NCBI GenBank assembly: GCA_030037525.1
Contig: JASHRC010000274.1
Coordinates: 1-36,473, forward strand
Length of the DNA stretch: 36,473 bases
Source of the DNA: Candidatus Acidiferrales bacterium
GTDB lineage: Bacteria > Acidobacteriota > Terriglobia > Acidiferrales > UBA7541
Direction of reading: 5' to 3'
Both the position numbers and the translations under genes were made by a program. A model generated the notes under the pieces. That model had not been told where the DNA came from, did not search any database, and saw only the letters and a program-made list of their open reading frames with translations. Within the stretch, counting starts at the first letter, position 1; each line of letters begins with the position of its first letter. Positions 901 through 36,473 of this stretch are shown in pieces.

Positions 901-2115
901 TTATCCATTCGCTGGGCGACGATCCGGCGTTATTCGTGTGAGCTCCCCCTTCACCGCTTGGAATTGCTCTACGGCAAACTCCAAATCTTCGCGGGTGTGC
1001 GCCGCAGAGATTTGAACGCGGATACGGGCCCGTCCCTGGGGCACCACCGGATAGGAGAATCCGACGACGTATACTCCTCTCTGCAGCAGGAGGTCGGCCA
1101 TCCGGGTGGCCAGCGCCGCCTCGCCCAGCATGACGGGCACGATGGGGTGTTCTCCCGGCAGAATCTCGAAGCCGGCGGTAGCCATGCGTTCGCGAAACAG
1201 CCGCGTGTTGGCGGAAAGGCGCTCGCGCAGCTCCTTGGTTTGGCCGAGCAAGTCCAACACCTTGAGTGAGGCTGCGACGATCATGGGCGCTACGCTGTTT
1301 GAAAACAGATAGGGACGAGACCTTTGCCGCAGCAGATCGACGATTTCCTTTCGGGCACTGGTATACCCGCCGCTTGCCCCGCCGAGCGCCTTGCCCAAGG
1401 TTCCGGTAAGGATGTCGATGCGACCCATCACGCCGTGATGCTCGTGAGTCCCGCGACCGTTCTCCCCCATGAACCCGACCGCATGCGAGTCATCCACCAT
1501 CACCATGGCCCTATAGCGCTCAGCCAGGTCGCAAATCTGAGGCAGCTTCGCAATGTAGCCGTCCATGGAGAAGACGCCGTCGGTGGCGACCAAGATTCGA
1601 CGCCGACCGGCAACCTCTTTCAGCGTAGCTTCCAGATCGTTCATGTCTCCGTTGCGGTAGCGAGCGCGCTGCGCTTTCGACAAGCGAATGCCGTCAATAA
1701 TGCTGGCGTGATTCAGCTCATCGGAGATGATCACATCTTCGGCGTCGAGCAACGTCTCAAACAGCCCTCCGTTGGCGTCAAAGCAGGAGCTGTAGAGAAT
1801 GGTGTCCTCCATGCCGAGGAACTCACTCAACCGTCGTTCGAGCTCCTTGTGGACCTGCTGCGTCCCGCAGATGAAGCGGACCGAGGAGAGGCCGTAGCCC
1901 CAGCGATCGAGCGCCTCGTGTGCGGCCCGGATGACTTCGGGATGATCGGCGAGGCCGAGATAGTTGTTGGCGCAGAGATTCAGCACGCCTTTGGCTTGTG
2001 GCAGGTCCACTCGCCGATTCTGAGGGCTCGCGAGGGTACGCTCGGATTTGTAGAGACCAGCTTCGCGAATCTCGCGCAGCTGCGATTCATAGAGGGGCCT
2101 TGCGGTCTGAAACAT
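901..2115 (-). CDS. kbl: 2-amino-3-ketobutyrate CoA ligase (glycine C-acetyltransferase)
   Basis: 404 aa; PLP-dependent alpha-oxoamine synthase signatures ([83 protein letters not shown]). Directly downstream of tdh. Confidence 0.95.
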
Positions 2116-2150
2116 CGGTTTTGGCTCCTATCGGTGCGCTTCGGAACCGA

Positions 2151-3185
2151 TCAATCAGACGCCCGCCAGTCCAAAATCACTTTTCCGGAGTCGCCCGACT
2201 TCATCACCTCGAATCCTTTTGCATACTCCTTCCACGAGAATCGGTTGGTAATGACCGGCCGGATGTCGAGTCCCGATTCCAGCATCACGGTCATTTTGTA
2301 CCAGGTCTCGTACATCTCCCGGCCATAGATACCCTTGATCGTCAGCATGTTGAAGATGACCTGTCGCCAATCGATCGACATCTCACCTGACGGAATGCCC
2401 AGCATGGCAATCTTCGCGCCGTGACTCATGTTCAGAAGCATCTCCCGAAACGCACTCGCGCTTCCCGACATCTCCAGCCCCACGTCAAACCCTTCCTGCA
2501 TGCCGAGCTTTTGCTGAACGTCCCTCAGGCGCACCTCGTTCGCGTTGACCGCACGCGTCACGCCGATTCGTTCCGCAAGCTTGAGCCGCTTGTCATTGAG
2601 ATCGGTGATGACGACGTGGCGCGCCCCGGCATGCCGCACCACCGCAGCCGCCATGATCCCGATGGGGCCTGCCCCAGTGATCAGCACGTCTTCCCCCAGC
2701 ACCGGAAACGATAGCGCCGTGTGCACGGCATTGCCGAAAGGATCGAAGATGGCGGCGATTTCCAGGTCCACCTTGGGGTTATGCCGCCAGATATTGCTCA
2801 TCGGCAGAACAATGTATTCGGCGAAGGCGCCCGGGCGATTCACTCCCACTCCAAGCGTGTGCGCGCATAGATGCCGCCTGCCCGCCAGGCAATTACGGCA
2901 GCGGCCACACACCACGTGGCCCTCGCCACTGACGATTTCCCCCGGAAGGAAGTCGTTGACATTGGCGCCCACGGCGACCACTTCTCCCACGAACTCGTGG
3001 CCGATGATCAGCGGGACGGGAATCGTTGCCTGGGCCCAAGCGTCCCAGTCGTAGATGTGCAGATCGGTTCCGCAGATTCCCGTCAGCAATACGCGGATCA
3101 GCACATCGTTGATCCCCGGCTCGGGAACGGGGACTTCCTCAAGCGAAAGCCCCGCTGCGGGTCTGGCCTTCACCAGCGCTTTCAT
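2151..3185 (-). CDS. tdh: L-threonine 3-dehydrogenase (zinc-dependent medium-chain dehydrogenase)
   Basis: [85 protein letters not shown] is open to 3218 but the start is probably the internal Met at 3185. 35 bp from kbl on the same strand. Confidence 0.95.
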
Positions 3186-3312
3186 CGATTTCGCCCACCC
3201 ATAGGAACGTAGCTCCAAGCTACAGGTCTAAATAAGCTGGTCTTTCCCACACCAGAGACAGGGCCACCTCGTCACCGATCACAGGGTGTCCCGGGGCCTG
3301 TCATCTCAACAC

Positions 3313-3330
3313 TGTTTCGCAAACGAAACA
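3313..3330. promoter_or_regulatory. Inverted repeat TGTTTCG-CAAA-CGAAACA, candidate operator upstream of tdh
   Basis: Perfect 7+7 bp arms with a 4 bp spacer in the tdh upstream intergenic region; size and form resemble TetR-family operators. Confidence 0.4.
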
Positions 3331-3643
3331 ATATCGAATCTCGACTCCGCCTAAGACATCAGCTCAGCAAAAGCCGGTCAATCTTAACTCCTTGGGTCCC
3401 GGAAACCCTAAAGGCCCTCAAGTGACTGACCCAGGTTGGGATTCTGCCGGCGATGCTGATCGCGGCCGCAGTCAGGCACTCACATCCAGCAGGTCGGGAG
3501 GGTGTCTTCTGTCCTTGGGAAGATAGGGGGTGACAAAGTCGCGAGAGAAAGGGAAAAAGCAGCGACCAGTTTTTCGGTTTGGGATTATACTTGCGCCGCC
3601 CAGCCCGCCTGGAGTACCACAACCGCCCGATGAGAGGTTCCGT

Positions 3644-21942: not shown

Positions 21943-24579
21943 TCAGCGCCGAGTCCGTTTTGTCGCAAGATCGATAAGCACGATGCCCGAGTTTTCCCGC
22001 AGTCGGTCGAAAACAATTCGGCTGCCGTCGGGAGTGATATCAAAGCTTCGCATTGCAGCCGGATTGTTCAGCCGAGTTAAGCGCCGCGATTGCATCCTGC
22101 GAACATCGAGCAGCCAGAAATCCTGCTCGGACAACGTATCCCCGAGCATGTAAACCAGTCCGGTGCCATCCGGGAGGAACCGCACACGTTCTCCGTCTCG
22201 CTGCACTCTGATGTCGGGCAACTTCACGGGCGCGCCATCGGGATGCACGGCGAGCAGTGGTGTCAGCGTGAACACCTGCGTGCCGCAATACACGATCAGA
22301 TCGCCCTTCGGAGACCACACGGGGTCCAGAAACGGTCCCGTTGCGATCCGAACCGGTAATCCTCCGTCAACCGGCAGTTTGAACAAGCCCAGCCCACTGG
22401 GGTCGCCGCCCGCCACGACAATCCATTTCCCGTCGGGAGACCAGGAAGCTGTACCGCGCACATCGACATCGCTCGAAAGAGGCCGTAATCCTGTTCCATC
22501 GGCGGACATGATGTGCATCTGCTGCTTTCCACCCCGCCTCAGCGCGAATGCGACGCTCGCTCCGTTGGCCGAGATGGCCGGGGGTATTCTCAGCGGGTGA
22601 TTCGAGCCCGCCCACACCTCCAGGGTTTGTCCGTCGCGATAGCTCCAAAGCCCGTCAGCCCCGTCCCGCGAACTCAAGTAGAAGAGCGACCCGCCGCCAA
22701 AGCGCGGCGCCCAGGCCCGCGAGGTAGGCAAGGTGAACGATTGGACGTCCTTCTCCTCGACAACGCGAGTCGTAATCGGAACGCTCCACAAACTGACTTG
22801 AGGGTTCACGATGCTCGCGGCCAGGCGGCGGCCATCCGTGGTGGACACAACGGCCGTGTATTGTTCCAGCCCGGAACTTACGCGGCGCGCAGTCCGAGTC
22901 TCCAAATCAAATGCCCACAACCACGGACCGATCCCGTCTTCATTGGGGGCGACGAACAGGACCGTCTGCTCATCAATCGGAGTCGGGTACGCGATATCGG
23001 TGTTGAGATGTGACAGTTTTTCTTCCTTTCCACCCTCTGGAGAAATCCGCCACAAGTCCATCTCGCGCGTGGCAGGCCGGCCCCGCACGAAATAGATCCA
23101 GCGCCCGTCGTTCGACCACACCGGGTAATGGTTGTGCAATCCGGGCTCGCTTCGCATGATCTGGCGTGGATCGGCGCCGTCGTGATCGGCCACAAACATT
23201 GGGTCGCCCGGGTCCCAAGTGTGATAAACCAGCCGCGAGCCGTCAGGGGACCAGGCAACTTCAGCGGCGTGTTCATCCATGAAATTGTGCGGCGCTCCGC
23301 CTATCAGGGGCCACAGCATGAGCCTTCTGGTCTCTGTTCCGCCGCTCCACACCTCCGATCCATCGCCTGAAAATCCGATGGCGCGAAGGGGTGCACGCGC
23401 GTCTCCGATCCGCCCGCGCGTTAGGTTGGCGAGGCTGCTACCGTTGGCTTGAACCACCCAGATGTCAAACATTCCGCCCCGGTCCGAGACGACGGCGACG
23501 AATTTCCCGTCCGGAGAAATCGCTGGATTCGTTTCGGCTCCGGTGAAGTCGGTAAGTCGCGTGAACTGCGCATCGGTAAGGGGATTTTCTGCTGCGGGCC
23601 TGGCGCGATTCGCGACAATCCACACAACGAATCCGGCCACCAGCAGCCCGAGGCCGAGGGCCGCAAGTGCCAGCCATTTCCGTTGCTGCTTTCGAGACGG
23701 TGCTGGCGGTGCCGTTGCGGAAATGCCGGAATCCGACAACGCCTCCAGCGCAAAAGCCAGGTCCGAAGCCGACTGGAAGCGCTGCTCCGGCTTTTTCTCC
23801 AGGCAGCGCTGGACGATTCTGTCCAGCGCGGGAGGGACCTTCGGCACGAACTGAGAAATGCCGGGAGGATCTTCGTGGAGGATGGCGTTCATCGTCTCCG
23901 CGGAGGTCGGCCTTTGGAATGCGCGCTTTCCCGCCACCATCTCGTACAATATCGCGCCGAACGCGAAGATGTCGGCGCGATGGTCGGCCGCTTTGCCGCT
24001 CACCTGTTCTGGCGACATGTAGCCGACGGTGCCCATCAGTGCGCCCGGCTCGGTCAGCTCGCTTATCGTGGGTGCGTTGCTATCGGCAACCCAAGCGCGT
24101 TGCGTGAGCTTGGCCAGGCCAAAATCGAGAATTTTCACTCTCCCATCACTGGTTACGAACAGGTTCTCGGGCTTCAAATCGCGGTGCACGATCCCTTTTT
24201 CGTGCGCCGCAGCCAAGCCCCGCGCGACTTGCACGCCATAATCAATCGCTTTCCGAAGCCTCACTGAGCTGCGCTTTAGCTGATCCCGCAGCGTAGCGCC
24301 TTCCAACAACTCCGAGACCAGGTAGGGCGCGCCTTCATACGTGCCCATCTGAAAGACGGCGAGGATGTTGGGATGATTCAGCGCTGCGGCAGCCCGCGCT
24401 TCCTGCTCGAAGCGCCGGAGCCGATCGGGATCGCTGGAGAATGCCAGGGGCAGAACCTTGATGGCTACATCGCGTCCGAGCTTTGTATCCCGTGCTCGGT
24501 ACACTTCACCCATCCCGCCCGCACCAATAGCTGACAGGATTTCGTAGGGGCCCAGCCGCGAACCTATTGACAGGGCCAT
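21943..24579 (-). CDS. Ser/Thr protein kinase with TM helix and C-terminal PD40/TolB-like beta-propeller
   Basis: [56 protein letters not shown] segment KWLALAALGLGLLVAGFVVWIVA; repeated ISPDGKFVAVVSD/WSPDGSRLVYH motifs. Confidence 0.95.
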   Translation of the reverse strand: MALSIGSRLGPYEILSAIGAGGMGEVYRARDTKLGRDVAIKVLPLAFSSDPDRLRRFEQEARAAAALNHPNILAVFQMGTYEGAPYLVSELLEGATLRDQLKRSSVRLRKAIDYGVQVARGLAAAHEKGIVHRDLKPENLFVTSDGRVKILDFGLAKLTQRAWVADSNAPTISELTEPGALMGTVGYMSPEQVSGKAADHRADIFAFGAILYEMVAGKRAFQRPTSAETMNAILHEDPPGISQFVPKVPPALDRIVQRCLEKKPEQRFQSASDLAFALEALSDSGISATAPPAPSRKQQRKWLALAALGLGLLVAGFVVWIVANRARPAAENPLTDAQFTRLTDFTGAETNPAISPDGKFVAVVSDRGGMFDIWVVQANGSSLANLTRGRIGDARAPLRAIGFSGDGSEVWSGGTETRRLMLWPLIGGAPHNFMDEHAAEVAWSPDGSRLVYHTWDPGDPMFVADHDGADPRQIMRSEPGLHNHYPVWSNDGRWIYFVRGRPATREMDLWRISPEGGKEEKLSHLNTDIAYPTPIDEQTVLFVAPNEDGIGPWLWAFDLETRTARRVSSGLEQYTAVVSTTDGRRLAASIVNPQVSLWSVPITTRVVEEKDVQSFTLPTSRAWAPRFGGGSLFYLSSRDGADGLWSYRDGQTLEVWAGSNHPLRIPPAISANGASVAFALRRGGKQQMHIMSADGTGLRPLSSDVDVRGTASWSPDGKWIVVAGGDPSGLGLFKLPVDGGLPVRIATGPFLDPVWSPKGDLIVYCGTQVFTLTPLLAVHPDGAPVKLPDIRVQRDGERVRFLPDGTGLVYMLGDTLSEQDFWLLDVRRMQSRRLTRLNNPAAMRSFDITPDGSRIVFDRLRENSGIVLIDLATKRTRR

Positions 24580-27060: not shown

Positions 27061-27376
27061 CCCTTAAAATGCAGAACGGTGTGTCAAATCATTACGTGTG
27101 TAGACTGGAAATACGCCGACGGATCGACTTGTTGCCTTTGCCACAGATAGGCGATTAGGGGACTCGTTTAGCGCTCGCGATGGTGTACGAAAGACGCCCA
27201 ATAGCGAGTGCGGCCGATAGCATGCTTCCACGCAGGCACTTTAGAGCGAGTTCCATACCCACGTTTGCGGTGGGCATCGTAGCACTGACTGCCGCTGGAG
27301 TGCGTCCTCACCTCGGGACGGCTGCCCGCTGCGCCCAATCACGGGCTCACGAAATACTCCGACTGGACGGCCAGTG

Positions 27377-29890
27377 ATGTGGCCCACACTGACAATCGTC
27401 GGATTCACCGCCACCGCCGTTCTGCTAGCATTCGCCTGGTTTCAAGCCCATCGTTTGTCCGAAGGACGAAGAGTCCAGCAGGAGCTCGAGAAATCATCGC
27501 AGGTCCTCGAAGAAGAGCGGAGAGTACTCGAGTTGATTGCCGAGGGTGCTTCGCTCAAGGAAGTACTGGACGCATTGACCATGGCCATCGAACGACTGGC
27601 CCCTGGCTGTTTTTGCTCGATTCTGCTTCTCGACGACGATCGCCGCAGATTACTAACGGGCTCAGGGGGTAGCCTGCCTCCCGAGTACGTGTGTGCCCTC
27701 GATGGACTGGAAATAGGGCCAGACGTGGGCGCCTGCGGCACCGCAGCCTTTCGAAATGAAACTACCATTGTGGAAGACGTCGCCACAGACTTTCGCTTTG
27801 CAGTCGCCAAAGATGTCCTGTTGTCGTTTGGCCTGCGCGCCTGTTGGAGTGTTCCGATCCGAGATTCCAACAAGAATGTTCTGGGAACATTTGCCATGTA
27901 CCACCAGCGCATCGCAAGCCCGCGCGAGCACGAGGTTAAGCTGGTGGAAGCGGGCGCCCATCTCGCCGGCAACGCTATCGAGCGCCTCCGCTCTGAGCAA
28001 AGCCTGCAAGAAAGCGCTGCGCGCTTTCAACTGGCCGAGAAGGCGGCCGCGTTCGGCGTCTGGCAAATCAATTTCCGTTTGGGAATGGTGACGATCTCAG
28101 ATGGGTTCTCTGCCTTGGCCGGTCTCGCGGGTCAGCCCCTACGCCTGACGCTTAGCCAATGGCGGGAGATGATCCACGTCGATGACCGGTCATCTTGGGA
28201 CACTGCCGTTGAGGGGGTCGTCGCTAAGCGGGCGTTTCAGGCTGAATACCGCATTGTCCTGCCAGATGGCTCCATCCGCTGGCTGCGTAGTCACGCCCAG
28301 ACGCAACTATCGGACGCGGGTTTGCATTTGCTCACTGGAGCGTCCATCGACATTACCGAGGCCAAAGAGTTGCTCATGAGGTTCTACAAGGCATTTAATG
28401 TGAACCCAGAGCCCATTGTCATCAATGCTTTTTCGGACGGCCGCTACGTCGATGTGAATGACAGTTTCCTTTGCGTGACTGGCTATCGACGCGAAGAGGT
28501 TCTTGGGCGCACGGCACGGGAAATGAAATTGTGGAGGCGGCCAGAAGATCGCGCCCGGTACTTGGAAATGCTCAAGGAAACAGGCTCGGTCCGCGACTTA
28601 GAAATCCTTTTCCAGACGAAGGCAGGGGCCCAACGCAAGGGGTTGATTTCGGCAGAGTTGATCGATATCGACGGCGAGAAATGTGCGATCGCTGTGATCA
28701 AGGACATTACTGAGCGGAGCATTTTGGAGAAGCAACTTCGCCAAGCGCAGAAGATGCAGGCCGTCGGGCAATTGACTGGTGGGATCGCGCACGACTTCAA
28801 TAACCTTCTCAGCGTGATTATGGGATACAGCGATATTCTCGAAGCAGGGTTGGACCCTGCCAGCAAATGGCAGAAGAGCGCTGCGCAGATCAAGAAGGCA
28901 GGGCAGAGTGCCGCGTCTTTGACTCGCCAACTACTGGCGTTTAGCCGCCAACAGGTGCTAGAGCCCACCGTGCTAGATCTCAACGCGATTGTAGTCGACA
29001 TGGAGAAGATGCTTCGGCGTCTGCTAAGGGAGAATATCGAGCTGAGAACCTTGCTAGAAGCCGGACTTGGCTGTGTCACCGCGGATCCGGGACAGATCGA
29101 GCAAGTCATCATCAATTTGGCTGTAAATGCCCGAGATGCAATGCCGCAAGGAGGAGTCTTGACGATCGAGACGGCGAATGTCGAGGCGGATGAGCACTAT
29201 GCTCGGCAATACCCTCCCATGTCCCCCGGCTCATTCGTTGCGCTAACCGTCACGGATAGTGGCGTCGGTATGGATGCCGAAATTCAGGCTCACATCTTTG
29301 AGCCGTTTTTCACGACCAAGGAAAGGGGCAAAGGTACCGGGCTCGGCCTAGCAACAGTATACGGAGTGGTGAAACAAAGCGGCGGCTTCATCTGGGTCCA
29401 GAGTGAACCCGGGCACGGCACTGCATTTAAGGTTCTTCTGCCGAGGGTTGAGAAACCTGCTCAAACAATCGTCGCCTATCCCAAGAGTTCCGGGGAATCC
29501 TCCAGGGGATCAGAAACCGTTCTCGTCACAGAAGACGAAGAGTCTCTGCGAGAGCTAATCCGGGACATGCTGGGCGAAAGCGGTTACACTGTCCTTGAAG
29601 CAGCCAACGGTACTCAGGCTATGGAAATTGCCCATCAAAATGACGGGAAGATCGACCTCCTCTTGACCGACGTGGTGATGCCAGGCATGAGCGGTCCAGA
29701 GCTGGCGGGCCAGTTGGTCTCGCTGTATCCGCAAATGAGGATAATTTACATGTCTGGGTACACGGACTTCGCCGCGCCGCAGAGCGAATTTCTCGAGCCG
29801 ACACGTCCTTTGCTGCGAAAACCTTTCACGCAAGGGAACCTGGTGCGCAAGGTTCGAGAGGTCCTGCAGAACAATTTCGCACCGGTGTGA
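27377..29890 (+). CDS. Hybrid sensor histidine kinase: TM-GAF-PAS-PAS-HisKA-HATPase-receiver
   Basis: One N-terminal TM; GAF (APGCFCSILLLDDDRRRLLTGSGGSLPPEYVCALDGLEIGPDVGACGTAAFRNE); PAS; H-box LTGGIAHDFNNLLSVIMGYSDILEAG; NLAVNARDAMPQGG; DSGVGMDAEIQAHIFEPFFTTKERGKGTGLGLATVYG; receiver VLVTEDEESLRELI..LLLTDVVMPGMSGPELA..LLRKPFT. Confidence 0.95.
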   Translation: MWPTLTIVGFTATAVLLAFAWFQAHRLSEGRRVQQELEKSSQVLEEERRVLELIAEGASLKEVLDALTMAIERLAPGCFCSILLLDDDRRRLLTGSGGSLPPEYVCALDGLEIGPDVGACGTAAFRNETTIVEDVATDFRFAVAKDVLLSFGLRACWSVPIRDSNKNVLGTFAMYHQRIASPREHEVKLVEAGAHLAGNAIERLRSEQSLQESAARFQLAEKAAAFGVWQINFRLGMVTISDGFSALAGLAGQPLRLTLSQWREMIHVDDRSSWDTAVEGVVAKRAFQAEYRIVLPDGSIRWLRSHAQTQLSDAGLHLLTGASIDITEAKELLMRFYKAFNVNPEPIVINAFSDGRYVDVNDSFLCVTGYRREEVLGRTAREMKLWRRPEDRARYLEMLKETGSVRDLEILFQTKAGAQRKGLISAELIDIDGEKCAIAVIKDITERSILEKQLRQAQKMQAVGQLTGGIAHDFNNLLSVIMGYSDILEAGLDPASKWQKSAAQIKKAGQSAASLTRQLLAFSRQQVLEPTVLDLNAIVVDMEKMLRRLLRENIELRTLLEAGLGCVTADPGQIEQVIINLAVNARDAMPQGGVLTIETANVEADEHYARQYPPMSPGSFVALTVTDSGVGMDAEIQAHIFEPFFTTKERGKGTGLGLATVYGVVKQSGGFIWVQSEPGHGTAFKVLLPRVEKPAQTIVAYPKSSGESSRGSETVLVTEDEESLRELIRDMLGESGYTVLEAANGTQAMEIAHQNDGKIDLLLTDVVMPGMSGPELAGQLVSLYPQMRIIYMSGYTDFAAPQSEFLEPTRPLLRKPFTQGNLVRKVREVLQNNFAPV

Positions 29891-30088: not shown

Positions 30089-30406
30089 TCAATTAATTGT
30101 GCTGTAGCTATGTGTACAGCCGGACTCTGTTGGCCCGCCCCGGAGCTGTAGGTCCACGCGAGTGCCGCCGGACTCTTCCAAGCCGTAGATCGAAGCAATA
30201 TTGGGGTGATCGAGAGAGGCAAGGACCTTGGCTTCGCGCTGGAACCGAGCCATGCGGTCCGGGTCACGTGCGAAGGCTTCTGGCAGGACCTTGATGGCTA
30301 CGTCACGGCCCAGCTTCGGATCACGGGCACGGTAAACCTCTCCCATCCCGCCCGCACCGATAGCGCCGGTGATTTCATAGGGGCCGAGTTTGGTGCCTGG
30401 CGTCAT
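30089..30406 (-). pseudogene. Truncated Ser/Thr kinase paralogue (array copy D), N-lobe only
   Basis: [105 protein letters not shown]; no HRD, DFG or propeller follows. Start overlaps the stop of copy C (ATGA). Confidence 0.9.
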
Positions 30407-33024
30407 TTCTTCAGCAGCGTCGGCCAGTTCACGACAATTGTGATCGGTGTTCCAGATTGCTCGGCCGCCGTCGGAATCAGAAAGCGGCCGTCCTTCGCGA
30501 TGCCGAACCATGAGAATTGGCCGCCTATCGCGTGAGGGTCAAACAGAGCTTCAGGCGCCCCTGCCTCGAAGGCGCCGCCCGGTCCACTCTTCACGCTCAC
30601 TGCCATCAGCTTTCCGTCTCCTCCGATGAAGTAGAGCTCCTTGCCGTCTCGGCTCCAGAGAGGGCGCGAGCCCCCGTTTATCGAGACTGGCCATTTGCCT
30701 CCTCGTTTGGGAAACGTCTGAACATAAACTTCATAGCGCCCGGTCTCATCGGAGGCGTACGCCAACCATTGGACGTTAGGCGAGAGCTTGCCTCCGATCT
30801 CATTGAATGGTTCGTCCAAATAAGGAAAGGATTTTTGATTGCCGCTCGCTTCTCCCTTGGATAATGGTAAAACCCACATAGAAAGCTTGGGACCCGCCAA
30901 AACTCCCTCGATCAGATAACGGCCATCGCTCGACCAATCCAATGGCACGGTGTAGCTGCCTGGAGTCTTGTCCAAGATCTCCATTTGGCCAACGCCGTTG
31001 ATGGCCTTTTGGTACAGACTAGTGTTGCCTCCGTCGCGGGTAGAGCGAAAGGCGACGTGACTTCCATCGGGAGACCACACGGGATATCCGTTATCCTTTC
31101 CATCGAATGTAAGGCGAGAGCGAGTGCCGCGCCCCAAGTTGTAAAGCCAGAGGTCCTCTCCTCCCTCCGCACTTCTGGAGACAACCACCGAGCTACCATC
31201 CGGTGAGATCGCGGGCTCGGGAGTTATGCCAGGTTCTCCCATGGTCCCAACGATCTTCCCCTGCCGGTTAAACAACGTCAGCTGAATGGGCGTGCTTCCT
31301 CCGAAGTAGGCCAGTAGGCCATTGTCGGATACCGTGAAATTGGTAACTTGCTGTAGGACCGGTACAGGATTACCTTTTAGCTCCAACCTAGTTTCGTCGA
31401 ACGCCTGAACCATAAGTGTGCCATTTTGCAGAAACACGACACTCCCGGGCACGGCGCGCGCTACTGCGCTGAGCAGCGGTCCGGAAGTTTGCTCTTTAGA
31501 TCCTGAATCTAGTGATCCCACATAGGTTCCCGCTGCGGTGCCAGGCGTACGCATGTACAGAAAATGCCGGCCGTCCGGAAGGAACCAGGGGTCCATATGC
31601 CTCACTTCCCCTCGCGAGGAATCTACCTTGGTTAGAAACGATGGCGTCCCGCCTGCCGCGGGGACCTGCATGAGACCTCCAATGAAACCCAACAAAATGA
31701 CGCCATCTCGATTCCACGCACCTCCATAAAGATTGGGGATATCGCAAATCGCTTGCGGGACGCCTCCGGAAATGTCAATCGTTTCGAGCTTGCTTCCACC
31801 TTCAAATCCGAGCAAGCGACTGTCAGGTGACCAGAAAGGACTGCTAGCACCTTCCGTGCTCGGCAAAGGGCGGACCACGAACGAATCCAAGTCGCGAACC
31901 CACAACTGACTCCGTCCGTCCTGCGCTGTTGCCGTGAACGCCAAATGGCGGCCGTCGGGAGAAAGAGCCAAAGACGTGCCGAAACTCGTCTTCTCCGGAG
32001 GAGGGATTTCGTAACGCAGCACTTGCGCTGGAGAGACTGGGCCTTCGCGGAAGTGAACGAAGGCTAGTGCTAGCGCAGTCACGACAGCTACACACGCAAT
32101 GGCCCAGGGCAGCGCGCGGCGCCATGCGGGTGCCGGCGGCGGAAGGCTAGGCGCGGCTTCGGGCGCTCCCGCAATAACTTCGTCAAGCGAAATCCGCGCG
32201 TCACCGATGTCGCGCAATCTTTGCTTTGGATCCTTCTGCAAGCAGCGCATGAGCAGAACACGAACGCGGACGGGGGTCGTAGGCGGTAGTTGTGACCAGT
32301 CCGGTTCTTCCTTGATGACGCCTGCAAGAGTGTCCGTCACCGTTTCACCGTGAAACGCTATCTTGCCGGCCAGCATCTCGTAGAGCACGCACCCGAACGC
32401 CCAGATGTCTGCTCGCCGATCCACGGGCTTGGCTTTGGCTTGCTCGGGTGACATGTAGGCCGCCGTCCCCAGCAGAACTCCCTGCTGAGTCGCCATCCGG
32501 CTAATCGTGGGCGACGTGGAAATATCGATGGAGGACGGATCGCCTTCGAGAGCTTTGGCTAGACCGAAGTCGAGCACCTTCACGCTATCGTCTGCGGCCA
32601 CCTTTATGTTGGCAGGTTTCAGGTCTCGATGGATGATGCCGCGTTCGTGGGCATATTCGAGTGCATCTGCAATCTGTCTTGCGATGCGAACAGCCTCATC
32701 GACGGGAATCGGACCTTGCTTGATGCGATCAGCGAGAGTCGGTCCTTCCACCAGCTCCATTACCAGCGCACGGGTGCTACCCGAATCTTCGAGTCCGTAA
32801 ATTGTGGCTATATTCGGGTGACTGAGTGAGGCGAGGACCTTGGCTTCACGCTGAAAGCGAGCCATGCGGGCTGCATCGCCGGCGAAGACTTCAGGCAGGA
32901 CCTTGATCGCTACGTCACGGCCCAACTTCGGATCGCGGGCGCGATAGACTTCGCCCATCCCACCCGCACCGATGGCAGCGATGATTTCGTAGGAGCCGAG
33001 TTTTGTGCCCGTCGCAATCGTCAT
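30403..33024 (-). CDS. Ser/Thr protein kinase with TM helix and PD40 beta-propeller (array copy C)
   Basis: [133 protein letters not shown]; repeated SPDGRHLAF/WSPDSRLLGF. The ORF extends to 33342, but the true start is the ATG at 33024. Confidence 0.95.
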   Translation of the reverse strand: MTIATGTKLGSYEIIAAIGAGGMGEVYRARDPKLGRDVAIKVLPEVFAGDAARMARFQREAKVLASLSHPNIATIYGLEDSGSTRALVMELVEGPTLADRIKQGPIPVDEAVRIARQIADALEYAHERGIIHRDLKPANIKVAADDSVKVLDFGLAKALEGDPSSIDISTSPTISRMATQQGVLLGTAAYMSPEQAKAKPVDRRADIWAFGCVLYEMLAGKIAFHGETVTDTLAGVIKEEPDWSQLPPTTPVRVRVLLMRCLQKDPKQRLRDIGDARISLDEVIAGAPEAAPSLPPPAPAWRRALPWAIACVAVVTALALAFVHFREGPVSPAQVLRYEIPPPEKTSFGTSLALSPDGRHLAFTATAQDGRSQLWVRDLDSFVVRPLPSTEGASSPFWSPDSRLLGFEGGSKLETIDISGGVPQAICDIPNLYGGAWNRDGVILLGFIGGLMQVPAAGGTPSFLTKVDSSRGEVRHMDPWFLPDGRHFLYMRTPGTAAGTYVGSLDSGSKEQTSGPLLSAVARAVPGSVVFLQNGTLMVQAFDETRLELKGNPVPVLQQVTNFTVSDNGLLAYFGGSTPIQLTLFNRQGKIVGTMGEPGITPEPAISPDGSSVVVSRSAEGGEDLWLYNLGRGTRSRLTFDGKDNGYPVWSPDGSHVAFRSTRDGGNTSLYQKAINGVGQMEILDKTPGSYTVPLDWSSDGRYLIEGVLAGPKLSMWVLPLSKGEASGNQKSFPYLDEPFNEIGGKLSPNVQWLAYASDETGRYEVYVQTFPKRGGKWPVSINGGSRPLWSRDGKELYFIGGDGKLMAVSVKSGPGGAFEAGAPEALFDPHAIGGQFSWFGIAKDGRFLIPTAAEQSGTPITIVVNWPTLLKK
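32290..33024 (-). repeat. Kinase-domain coding repeat unit (copy C), near-parallel to 35830..36473 (copy A)
   Basis: Long nucleotide similarity by eye, for example 'actccctgctgagtcgccatccggctaatcgtgggcgacgtggaaatatcgat' against 'actccctgctgagtcgccatgcggctaatcgtgggagaggtggagatgtcgat'. The two are in direct orientation. Confidence 0.7.
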
Positions 33025-33026
33025 CG

Positions 33027-33452
33027 TTAGAAGAGCAGTTTCTGACCGGGGGCTGTCCCTTCCACCGCGATCATCTTGACTCGAGTGGTCAGCATCGGTC
33101 CGTCGTCGCCGTGGATCTCCATCTGCAAACCGATGTAAATCCCTCGCAACTTTAAGATGCTTCCCCCGAAAGTCGCCCCGGCCAGCCGGGCGGGAGTCGC
33201 GTGGGGAAAGAACTGCCCGCCGCGAACCACGATCTCTCCCCTCCAGCCGTCCGTGACCATGATCTCGTACAGGCTGTTGCGAGTTCGCACCAGCAGCTTC
33301 TGCATCTCGTCCATCTGCTCGATCTGCACGCCATTGGTCCACGGCTCGTCGGACCAGAAGTCGAGCGTTGCTCCCGCGGGGATCGTTTGTGGCATCTGCG
33401 CCGACTGCTCCGCGTGCCGCGTGACGTAGCCGCTGATGTCCGTTGCGCTCAT
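33027..33452 (-). CDS. Uncharacterised 141 aa protein embedded in the kinase array
   Basis: MSATDISGYVTRHAEQSAQMPQTIPAGATLDFWSDEPWTNGVQIEQMDEMQKLLVRTRNSLYEIMVTDGWRGEIVVRGGQFFPHATPARLAGATFGGSILKLRGIYIGLQMEIHGDDGPMLTTRVKMIAVEGTAPGQKLLF; tightly spaced between copy B and copy C. No family recognised. Confidence 0.65.
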   Translation of the reverse strand: MSATDISGYVTRHAEQSAQMPQTIPAGATLDFWSDEPWTNGVQIEQMDEMQKLLVRTRNSLYEIMVTDGWRGEIVVRGGQFFPHATPARLAGATFGGSILKLRGIYIGLQMEIHGDDGPMLTTRVKMIAVEGTAPGQKLLF

Positions 33453-33459
33453 GGATTGC

Positions 33460-33944
33460 TCACTTCCCCGTCGGCACGAGGCGCTTCAACTCTTCGGTCC
33501 AGTTCAGCACGATGTTGATCTGCGTCGGCGCCGCCTGCTCATCGTCGGTCGGCTTGACCATGAGGAATCGTTGGCCGTCCGAGGGCACGTCATAATTGGG
33601 TATCGTTGCCACGCTCTGCTCGTATGGTCCCTCAAAGAGCATCTTCGGCTTGCCCACTGAAAAACTGGGCTGTGTCGTTATTTCCACCGCCATGATTTTG
33701 TCCCCGCTGCGATAGAACAGCTCCCGCCCGTTCCGGTTCCACACAGGTTCGCTGCCGCCTTCGGCGGAGATTAGGTACTTGCCGCCTGGGCCGCATCGCC
33801 AGCGAACGCCTCGGGTAGGACTTTGATGGCTACATCACGGCCAAGCTTCGAGTCGTGGGCGCGGTAAACTTCGCCCATGCCTCCCGCACTGAGCAGAGAG
33901 ATAATTTCGTACGAACCGAGCTTCGTCCCTGTCGCAATCGTCAT
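33460..33944 (-). pseudogene. Internally deleted Ser/Thr kinase paralogue (array copy B)
   Basis: From 33944: [57 protein letters not shown] (stop at 33773..33771). In another frame directly adjoining: [79 protein letters not shown]-lobe joined to the propeller C-terminus with the middle missing. Confidence 0.9.
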
Positions 33945-36473
33945 TTCTTCAGCGCCGCCTGCCAGTTCAGCACTACGGTGAACGGAGCTTGGCTAGTTTC
34001 CACCGGTGCCGCAAAAAGGAAGCGCTTGCCATCCGGCGCCACGTCCCACGACTGCCTAAATACCGAACGCAGTCTGTTTCGCGGGACCTGGAAAAGAACT
34101 TTGGGAACCCCTGCCCGGAATACTGGAGTCGTTGCAATCTCGACAGCCATCAGTTTCTCGTCCGGTGTAAGGTAGTACAAACCATTGCCATCCCCATTCC
34201 ACCGAGGTTCAGTTCCTCCTCCTATGGAGATTAGCCACTTCCCCTCGCCATCCGAAGCCGTCCCAACAAGATCAGGCGAAAACGTCCGCACATAAATCTC
34301 CTCGCGGCCGGATTCGTCAGAGACATAGGCGACGAAGCGCCCGTCGGGCGAGAACTGCCCCTCGCCGTTATTAAACCCCGTACACAAGAAGGGAATTGGT
34401 TTCTTATCACCTTCGAATGAAAGCACCCATAATTCTTTCCTTTTTGTCCTCGGGTCCGACGTCGAATAAAGCAGGAAACGTCCGTCGCGTGACCAGTTCG
34501 TCGGATGCTTGTTCTCGCTCGACTTCAGCACAAGCTCTTCATCCCTCACCCCGCTGGTGGACCTCTGATACAGATCGGATGCGCCGCCCCCAGTTCTGGG
34601 GAAGATTATTCGGCTCGCGTCCGGCGACCATGCGCCAGGGAGGGCATACGAAGCACCAAAAGTGAATCTTGCGCTTGTGCCCCGGGACAGATCGACCACC
34701 CATAGAAATGCTGTCGGCGCACCGCCGTCGAGCCGCACGACCGCGGCTCGAGTTCCATCCGGAGAGAGGCTTACACTCCCGTAGTTAGCCGGTTCCCCGA
34801 CAATACCGACTCGTCTTCCTCGCTGGTCAAGCCAAGTCAGCTGGTAGGCTCCGCCCGTCCTGTAAACCAGCACACCATTGGTTGAGGCTGAGAAAAGTCC
34901 GAAGGCTAAAACGGACCCAAGCCGCTCAGCGATGGTGATTGGCTCGCCTGAGAGCTCCAGGCGCCGGGAATCGAACAGCTGCGCCATCAGCATGTGCTCG
35001 CGCATGAACAGCAACTGCCCTGTGGTGCCCTCGAACGATGGGACATAGCACACTCCTAGATCCGTCGCCAGCAGTCGTTTTAAATTTTGCTCCTCGGGCT
35101 TGACATCGAGAGAGCCGATATAGACGCCGCTGTGCTCGCCCGCAGCCGAATACCGCAAGTAAACGAAATGTCGGCCATCGGGAAGCAGCCACGGCATAAC
35201 GTGCTGAATTTCCCCGCGGGATGGGTCGAGAGTGGTCACAGGAGAAGCAAATCCGCCGTTCGCCTGAACCCGCATGATCACACCCCCACCCGGCCCGAAG
35301 ATGATTACGTCATCACGGTTCCACGAACCTCCCACTGCGGCGAGCGCGAGATCGCACAACGTTTGCGCTGGCCCGCCAGCGATTCCAATTCGCTTGAGTT
35401 TTCCGCCAGCACTAAAAGCAATGTGTCGGCTATCGGGAGACCATACAAACGGCGGGATATTGGGAGATTCCGTGCCGAGCAGCGGGCGCGCTTCAAGCGA
35501 ATCCAGAGGGCGTATCCATAGTCGTAGAACGCCATCGGAGCCCGTCGCGGCAAAGGCTAACTGCCGGCCGTCGGGCGAGATCCCGAACACGCTCGTCGCT
35601 ATCAACACCACCTTCTCCGGCAACACAATTTCTAAGCGCATGAGCCCAGCGGCAGGCAGCTTTTCGCGGTCAGCAGACACCGGTTCTGGCGTGCCTAATA
35701 GAACTTCGTCGAGCGAAATGCGCGCGTCGCCGATGTCGCGCAATCGCTGTTTCGGATCCTTTTGCAAGCAACGTTGAAGCAAAACGCGCACGCGGACTGG
35801 CGTCGCTCCGGGAAGTTGCGACCAATCGGGGTCCTTCATGATTACTGCTGCCAGCGTGTCGGTTACCGTCTCGCCCGTAAACGTTTGTTTGCCCGTCAGC
35901 ATTTCGTACAGCACGCAACCGAACGCCCAAATATCCGCACGGCGGTCCACGGGCTTGGCCTTTGCTTGCTCCGGTGACATGTATGCGGCTGTCCCCAGCA
36001 GAACTCCCTGCTGAGTCGCCATGCGGCTAATCGTGGGAGAGGTGGAGATGTCGATTGCGGCGGGGTCGCCTTCCAGAGCCTTCGCCAAGCCAAAATCCAG
36101 CACCTTGACGGTGTCATCTGCGGCCACCTTGATGTTCGCAGGTTTCAAGTCACGATGGATGATTCCGCGCTCATGAGCGTATTCGAGAGCATCGGCAATT
36201 TGCCTAGCGATACGAACTGCCTCATCGACAGGAACGGGTCCCTGTTTGATGCGGTCGGCGAGCGTCGGCCCTTCCGCCAACTCCATCACCAGGGCGCGTG
36301 TGCTGCCCGAGTCCTCGAGTCCGTAGATCGTCGCGATGTTTGAGTGGCTGAGAGAAGCGAGAACCTTGGCTTCGCGCTGGAAGCGGGCCATGCGATCGGC
36401 GTCGCGGGCAAAGGTGGCAGGAAGGACTTTAATGGCTACGTCACGGCCTAGCTTGGGATCACGGGCGCGGTAG
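33941..36473 (-). CDS. Ser/Thr protein kinase with PD40 beta-propeller (array copy A; start lies beyond the right edge)
   Basis: Open frame to the window edge ([52 protein letters not shown]), [102 protein letters not shown]. Confidence 0.95.

Follow-up and report, generated by a model that had tools for sequence, protein, structure and literature searches.

The window analysed here, a 36,473-bp stretch comprising the whole of contig C85 from the draft source genome (G000; 4.2-Mb, 286 contigs, 93% complete), carries a head-to-tail array of PD40 Ser/Thr kinase genes and gene remnants, all on the minus strand and arranged along it in the order A, B, ORF141, C and D. As the initial annotation had described, whole copies (A and C) alternate with broken ones (B and D), and a non-kinase open reading frame separates B from C. 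Kinase A (33941..36473, minus strand) comprises the 3' 843 codons of a whole PD40 Ser/Thr kinase and is open at the contig end, whilst its promoter and the 26 codons that open it are found on the minus strand of contig C29 (1-274), the first 197 bases of which match the last 197 of C85 exactly. The copy had been called intact in the window, which holds only once the two contigs are joined to give a complete protein of 869 aa with the G-loop, VAIK, HRDLKP and DFG motifs and matches to the Pkinase (4e-48) and PD40 (PF07676; 1.7e-17) profiles. It begins MAIQSGTHLGPYEI downstream of a promoter-like block on C29; the start motif said to be common to all four copies is in the case of A absent from the window, reading THLGPYEI on C29.

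The ATG of kinase B, at 33944, overlaps the stop codon of A (ATGA). Its 5' stub (33789..33944, minus strand) consists of 52 N-lobe codons, the start being 73% identical to C (E 6e-23), and at a junction near 33789 the N-lobe gives way to a propeller tail read in a different frame, with a stop after 57 codons. This out-of-frame 3' tail (33460..33788, minus strand) retains ~110 codons of a propeller end, 72% identical to the kinase at L216 and 71% to the C-terminus of C116, and belongs to the propeller family of C116 and C214b. ORF141 (33027..33452, minus strand; 141 aa) follows, for which Pfam and NCBIfam searches gave no match; homologues were found in G014, G035 and G032 (48-56% identity), with a second G000 copy on C24 (53%). 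We rejected it as a conserved array member; in G014 the homologue is likewise close to the start of a kinase, at a point where its contig ends. Kinase C (30403..33024, minus strand) is whole (873 aa; Pkinase 5e-54, PD40 (PF07676) 3.7e-26) and comprises a kinase domain (32170..33024, minus strand; codons 1-285), the part that groups by genome, and a membrane helix and propeller (30403..32120, minus strand; from ~codon 302), which group across genomes in the subfamily and have C29b as their nearest relative. The catalytic motifs of the Hanks-type kinase domain are intact, and the C-terminal PD40 propeller present, in both A and C. Kinase D (30089..30406, minus strand) is a stub whose ATG at 30406 overlaps the stop of C; ~90 codons of N-lobe homology, reaching ~30125 and matching Pkinase at 2e-10 over profile positions 1-69 only, run into unrelated DNA up to a stop at 30089, and no repeat copy of this tail was found elsewhere in the G000 genome. 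The kinase homology of the B and D starts is, by alignment, well beyond chance; as read from their frames, which lack HRD and DFG, neither can be a kinase, and both are probably pseudogenes.

Upstream on C29, the K3-type kinase C29b is followed by ~6 kb of other genes and then by A; C29b sits ~12 kb upstream of C on the joined contig, the two forming the only close pair. The window also encodes another PD40 Ser/Thr kinase (21943-24579, minus strand; 878 aa), 41% identical to C over codons 2-410 and from a subfamily more remote from the array, and a hybrid histidine kinase (27374-29890, plus strand; GAF, PAS, HisKA, HATPase and receiver domains) that is convergent with the array and has CckA-like top NCBIfam matches below cut-off. 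An Rfam search of the window returned zero matches.

Seven largely whole copies of the subfamily were found in G000 (A, C, C29b, C204b, C126, C116 and C214b), a count that leaves out contig-edge fragments, along with stubs on C204, C119, C108, C72, C86, C264, C271, C65 and C207. The proposal of birth and death was thereby supported, with whole copies and both fresh and old stubs coexisting in the array and at ~10 further sites in G000. Upstream of 11 copies (four whole, seven stubs) stands a shared block that includes a TATACT box. A successor 5' stub followed six of the seven whole copies with a readable 3' side, the seventh being followed by C214b itself; these stubs ranged from ~ten codons (C29b, C126 and C204b) to 142 (C116, where the stub is of another subfamily), and ATGA start/stop overlaps were seen at stubs after whole genes. 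Such stubs are also carried by G014 and G001 which, with G003, G010, G007, G009 and others, are the sister genomes compared with G000; the genomes compared are draft MAGs, in which arrays are interrupted at contig ends.

The kinase domains of A and C share 86-91% protein identity and the propellers 43-48%, whilst synonymous sites are near saturation in both parts. The propeller of A groups with C204b and with genes of G001 and G014, and over the whole gene these array neighbours are not each other's closest relatives. Judged on this divergence, A and C are not recent duplicates, and the identity of their kinase domains would therefore reflect selection and old exchange rather than a recent copy. 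Most silent sites of the kinase domain were saturated among the G000 copies; synonymous difference was 0.33 in codons 1-15 and climbed to ~0.65, the lower values being confined to the first ~40 codons. This 5' to 3' gradient was found within G000 and was absent between G000 and the sister genomes.

Phylogenetic analyses separated the histories of the two halves of the protein. In nucleotide trees of the N-lobe and the C-lobe, all seven G000 copies fell together, and the copies of other genomes mostly did likewise, whereas protein propeller trees gave families that cut across genomes; within the kinase domain, the two lobe trees disagreed on neighbours. In the main set of protein trees, built on 34 kinases taken from genomes inside and outside the genus, the kinase-domain tree recovered exact genome groups, with 18 changes, the minimum, and clades for G000 (7/7, SH-aLRT 99), G014 (6/6, 98) and G001 (4/4, 81). 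The propeller tree was random with respect to genome, G000 requiring 6 changes against a shuffled mean of 6.6. AU tests rejected the two propeller families as clades on the kinase data (1.9e-7, 2.2e-5) and the genome clades on the propeller data (9.6e-10, 5.2e-5, 6.6e-4); the groups were named after earlier trees had been viewed, making these p-values somewhat generous, but the log-likelihood margins are large (98 to 593). The kinases were picked by kinase-domain similarity to C, a choice that could favour G000, but since G014 and G001 behave like G000 it is unlikely to have caused the grouping by genome. Codon bias or base composition was not supported as a cause, in that the grouping appears in protein trees and is absent from the genus's other subfamilies: in 45 other-subfamily PD40 kinases from the same genus, which served as a control for composition and method, the kinase tree required 24 changes (minimum 9, random 27).

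Identity profiles placed the change between the two histories at a sharp boundary. Over codons 1-280, same-genome pairs were more alike than other-genome pairs of the same propeller family, the latter mostly equalling random pairs, whilst after codon 300 same-family pairs shared 49-72% identity and same-genome pairs 22-55%, now the equal of random pairs. The switch fell at codons 281-300, where the kinase domain has ended and the membrane helix has yet to begin. Paralogues group by genome, against linked orthology, in the kinase domain and not in the propeller, a pattern expected under concerted evolution. Independent orthologues elsewhere, which the initial annotation had named as evidence against its own reading, were found for the propeller but not for the kinase domain. 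One subfamily kinase in the sister genome G007 (contig C103; L213, ~1130-3530) appears to be broken in two by a propeller frameshift, its two frames covering query positions 2-439 and 434-787.

We consider it probable (roughly 0.7) that ectopic recombination homogenises the kinase domains of a given genome whilst the sensors descend separately, and that deletions kill members and leave their 5' ends behind as stubs. The array would be part of an old, dispersed subfamily, in a Candidatus Acidiferrales-like acidobacterium, of PD40 Ser/Thr sensor kinases whose kinase domains, from the start to ~codon 285, may be kept alike by gene conversion or crossing-over with other loci. Between paralogues, the kinase domain is the sole part with 75-86% DNA identity, which would confine homologous recombination to it; the propellers, probably too diverged to recombine, would form separate families older than the species split. 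Repeated exchange would also give the differing neighbours seen in the N-lobe and C-lobe trees, and such homogenisation probably accounts for the grouping by genome. In a GENECONV-like permutation test, two kinase-domain tracts survived correction (C29b-C116 and C204b-C116), weakly so at Bonferroni 0.02-0.04, and zero tracts were found between A and C. No recent long identical tracts were found among the copies, so homogenisation would be old or work in short tracts.

Loss of members would proceed by illegitimate deletion. Crossing-over within the kinase domains of neighbours gives whole chimeras, so broken copies would need another process; illegitimate deletion is suggested both by the out-of-frame junction of B and by the way D runs on into unrelated DNA. 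The unequal crossing-over first proposed for the array thus does not on its own account for its broken members, although recombination among copies is indicated, genome-wide and in the kinase domain only. Where the next start overlaps the previous stop (ATGA), a deletion that removed the start would harm the neighbour; a deletion sparing it would leave a 5' stub and hence the sequence whole, stub, whole, stub, with B and D as such remnants. The junctions suggest this protection by overlap as the reason for stubs, but it cannot account for every one, as promoter-bearing stubs without an upstream kinase stop also occur.

Head-to-tail order, a common start motif and ATGA junctions would all be expected had A to D arisen by recent tandem duplication, in place through unequal crossing-over, and some copies then broken; yet the low propeller identity of A and C, their saturated dS, the grouping of the A propeller with C204b and with G001 and G014 genes, and the whole chimeras rather than stubs that kinase-domain crossing-over would yield, all speak against such an origin. 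It appears largely refuted by divergence, trees and AU tests, and we rate it as very unlikely. The same tree conflict and sharp boundary would arise if a single kinase gene had multiplied in each species and had acquired, again and again, propellers of older or foreign origin, a history whose trees are identical to those expected under conversion and for which single sensor swaps in the other-subfamily trees offer a precedent. It would nonetheless demand many independent and precise fusions at one codon, and the kinase-domain tracts and conflicting lobe trees favour repeated exchange inside the kinase domain, leaving this history unlikely. We think it quite unlikely that the promoter and kinase domain form a genomic module that spreads to fresh loci and attaches itself to further genes for sensors or enzymes, giving the sensors of a species one shared kinase core, with some stubs now serving as promoters or starts of unrelated genes, as an in-frame fusion to a cytochrome-c-like gene on C264 would suggest.

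A working role for the stubs, either as a silent donor library for the whole genes or as leaders capturing promoters, is highly improbable, although promoter and N-lobe are kept at seven stub loci and the reading frame of the C264 stub continues into the cytochrome-c-like ORF. Partial copies had been proposed as local recombination donors, but B and D resemble dispersed copies about as closely as they do A and C, their silent identity to these two being no higher, and long shared tracts are lacking, the longest exact ones measuring 12 bp (A-B), 20 bp (A-D), 16 bp (C-D), 14 bp (B-C) and 32 bp (A-C). Tract lengths, silent identity and the GENECONV-like test thus gave no sign of recent donor use of B or D, and silent copies sharing tracts with an expressed neighbour, as in donor-cassette systems, were not found. 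The leader role fares similarly: in six sister genomes (flanks 0.6 to 5 kb) no kinase precedes the transglutaminase-like gene that on C86 follows the stub, and the leader region of these genomes persists in G000 behind the stub, which would make that stub the remains of a kinase that this lineage acquired, not a promoter that the gene needs. With the D and C108 stubs running into convergent genes, promoter capture was rejected as a general reason for stubs. The left flanks of the C86, C271, C65 and C207 stubs showed no synteny in the sister loci compared. The leader upstream of the transglutaminase-like gene, GGCTTCACTTGA...CCTCCC...TAAGCGACCGTCGGCCGTT, is found in seven genomes (L041 ~2730-2810; L254-L259) and is a candidate RNA or regulatory element with no Rfam match at gathering score.

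Unrelated genes commonly come directly after stubs, and at three loci other genes lie between kinase scraps. On C264 (L096, ~2540-3040, minus strand), the kinase promoter and first 17 codons are in frame with a cytochrome-c-like secreted or lipoprotein ORF, beyond which lies a C-terminal kinase scrap (1267-1455). A TAT-signal amidase on C204 (L033, 1000-3147, minus strand) sits between a promoter-plus-N-lobe stub and a 26-aa C-terminal scrap, and a RidA gene on C119 also has kinase scraps on either side. The arrangement is suggestive of cargo insertion into kinases, but is explained equally well by an operon whose flanking kinases have decayed. On C271 (L042, 4115-6560, plus strand), the frame of a PQQ-dehydrogenase-like ORF (777 aa) opens with a kinase C-lobe remnant (codons 231-288) followed by a lipobox.

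Bacterial duplicate genes such as tuf and rRNA undergo concerted evolution by gene conversion. As in those genes, paralogues here are more alike within than between species; unlike the whole, near-identical tuf and rRNA genes, the process here would act on one domain of dispersed and tandem sensor genes, with a sharp edge, and be old and patchy. Domain shuffling has reportedly been surveyed in myxobacterial two-component sensor kinases, where a signalling core is likewise joined to varied sensor domains, but through one-off fusions, whereas here the core would be homogenised across the family and the sensors stay orthologous. The PD40/WD40-like propeller Ser/Thr kinases of Acidobacteriota, for example the paralogues of Solibacter usitatus Ellin6076, share with the array the same PF00069 and PF07676 order, many paralogues and low full-length identity; the excerpted text of that study reports large paralogue numbers, full-length identity under 50% and no positive selection, and describes neither a conversion test nor a division of kinase from sensor (PMC3174227), the halves that differ in history here. 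The proteins are ordinary PD40 kinases and the array itself is ordinary; kinase-limited homogenisation is apparently the new element. For these kinases, the literature searched, mostly outside subscription journals, did not describe homogenisation restricted to a single domain, which is weak evidence. If true, dozens of membrane sensors per cell would keep a common kinase core with distinct sensing halves, one protein evolving under two rules, its kinase half homogenised within the species and its sensor half descending from old ancestors. This would be relevant to the ways in which large families of kinases retain or avoid crosstalk, and kinase-domain trees, the usual practice, would give species-specific expansions that are unreal for the sensors. 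Among the records compared, one titled Bordetella parapertussis (MAG HRS-HS12-bin-180; L140, L153, L156, L166) encodes several PD40 kinases with 43-48% identity to C; the label looks wrong, and the genome is probably that of an acidobacterium.
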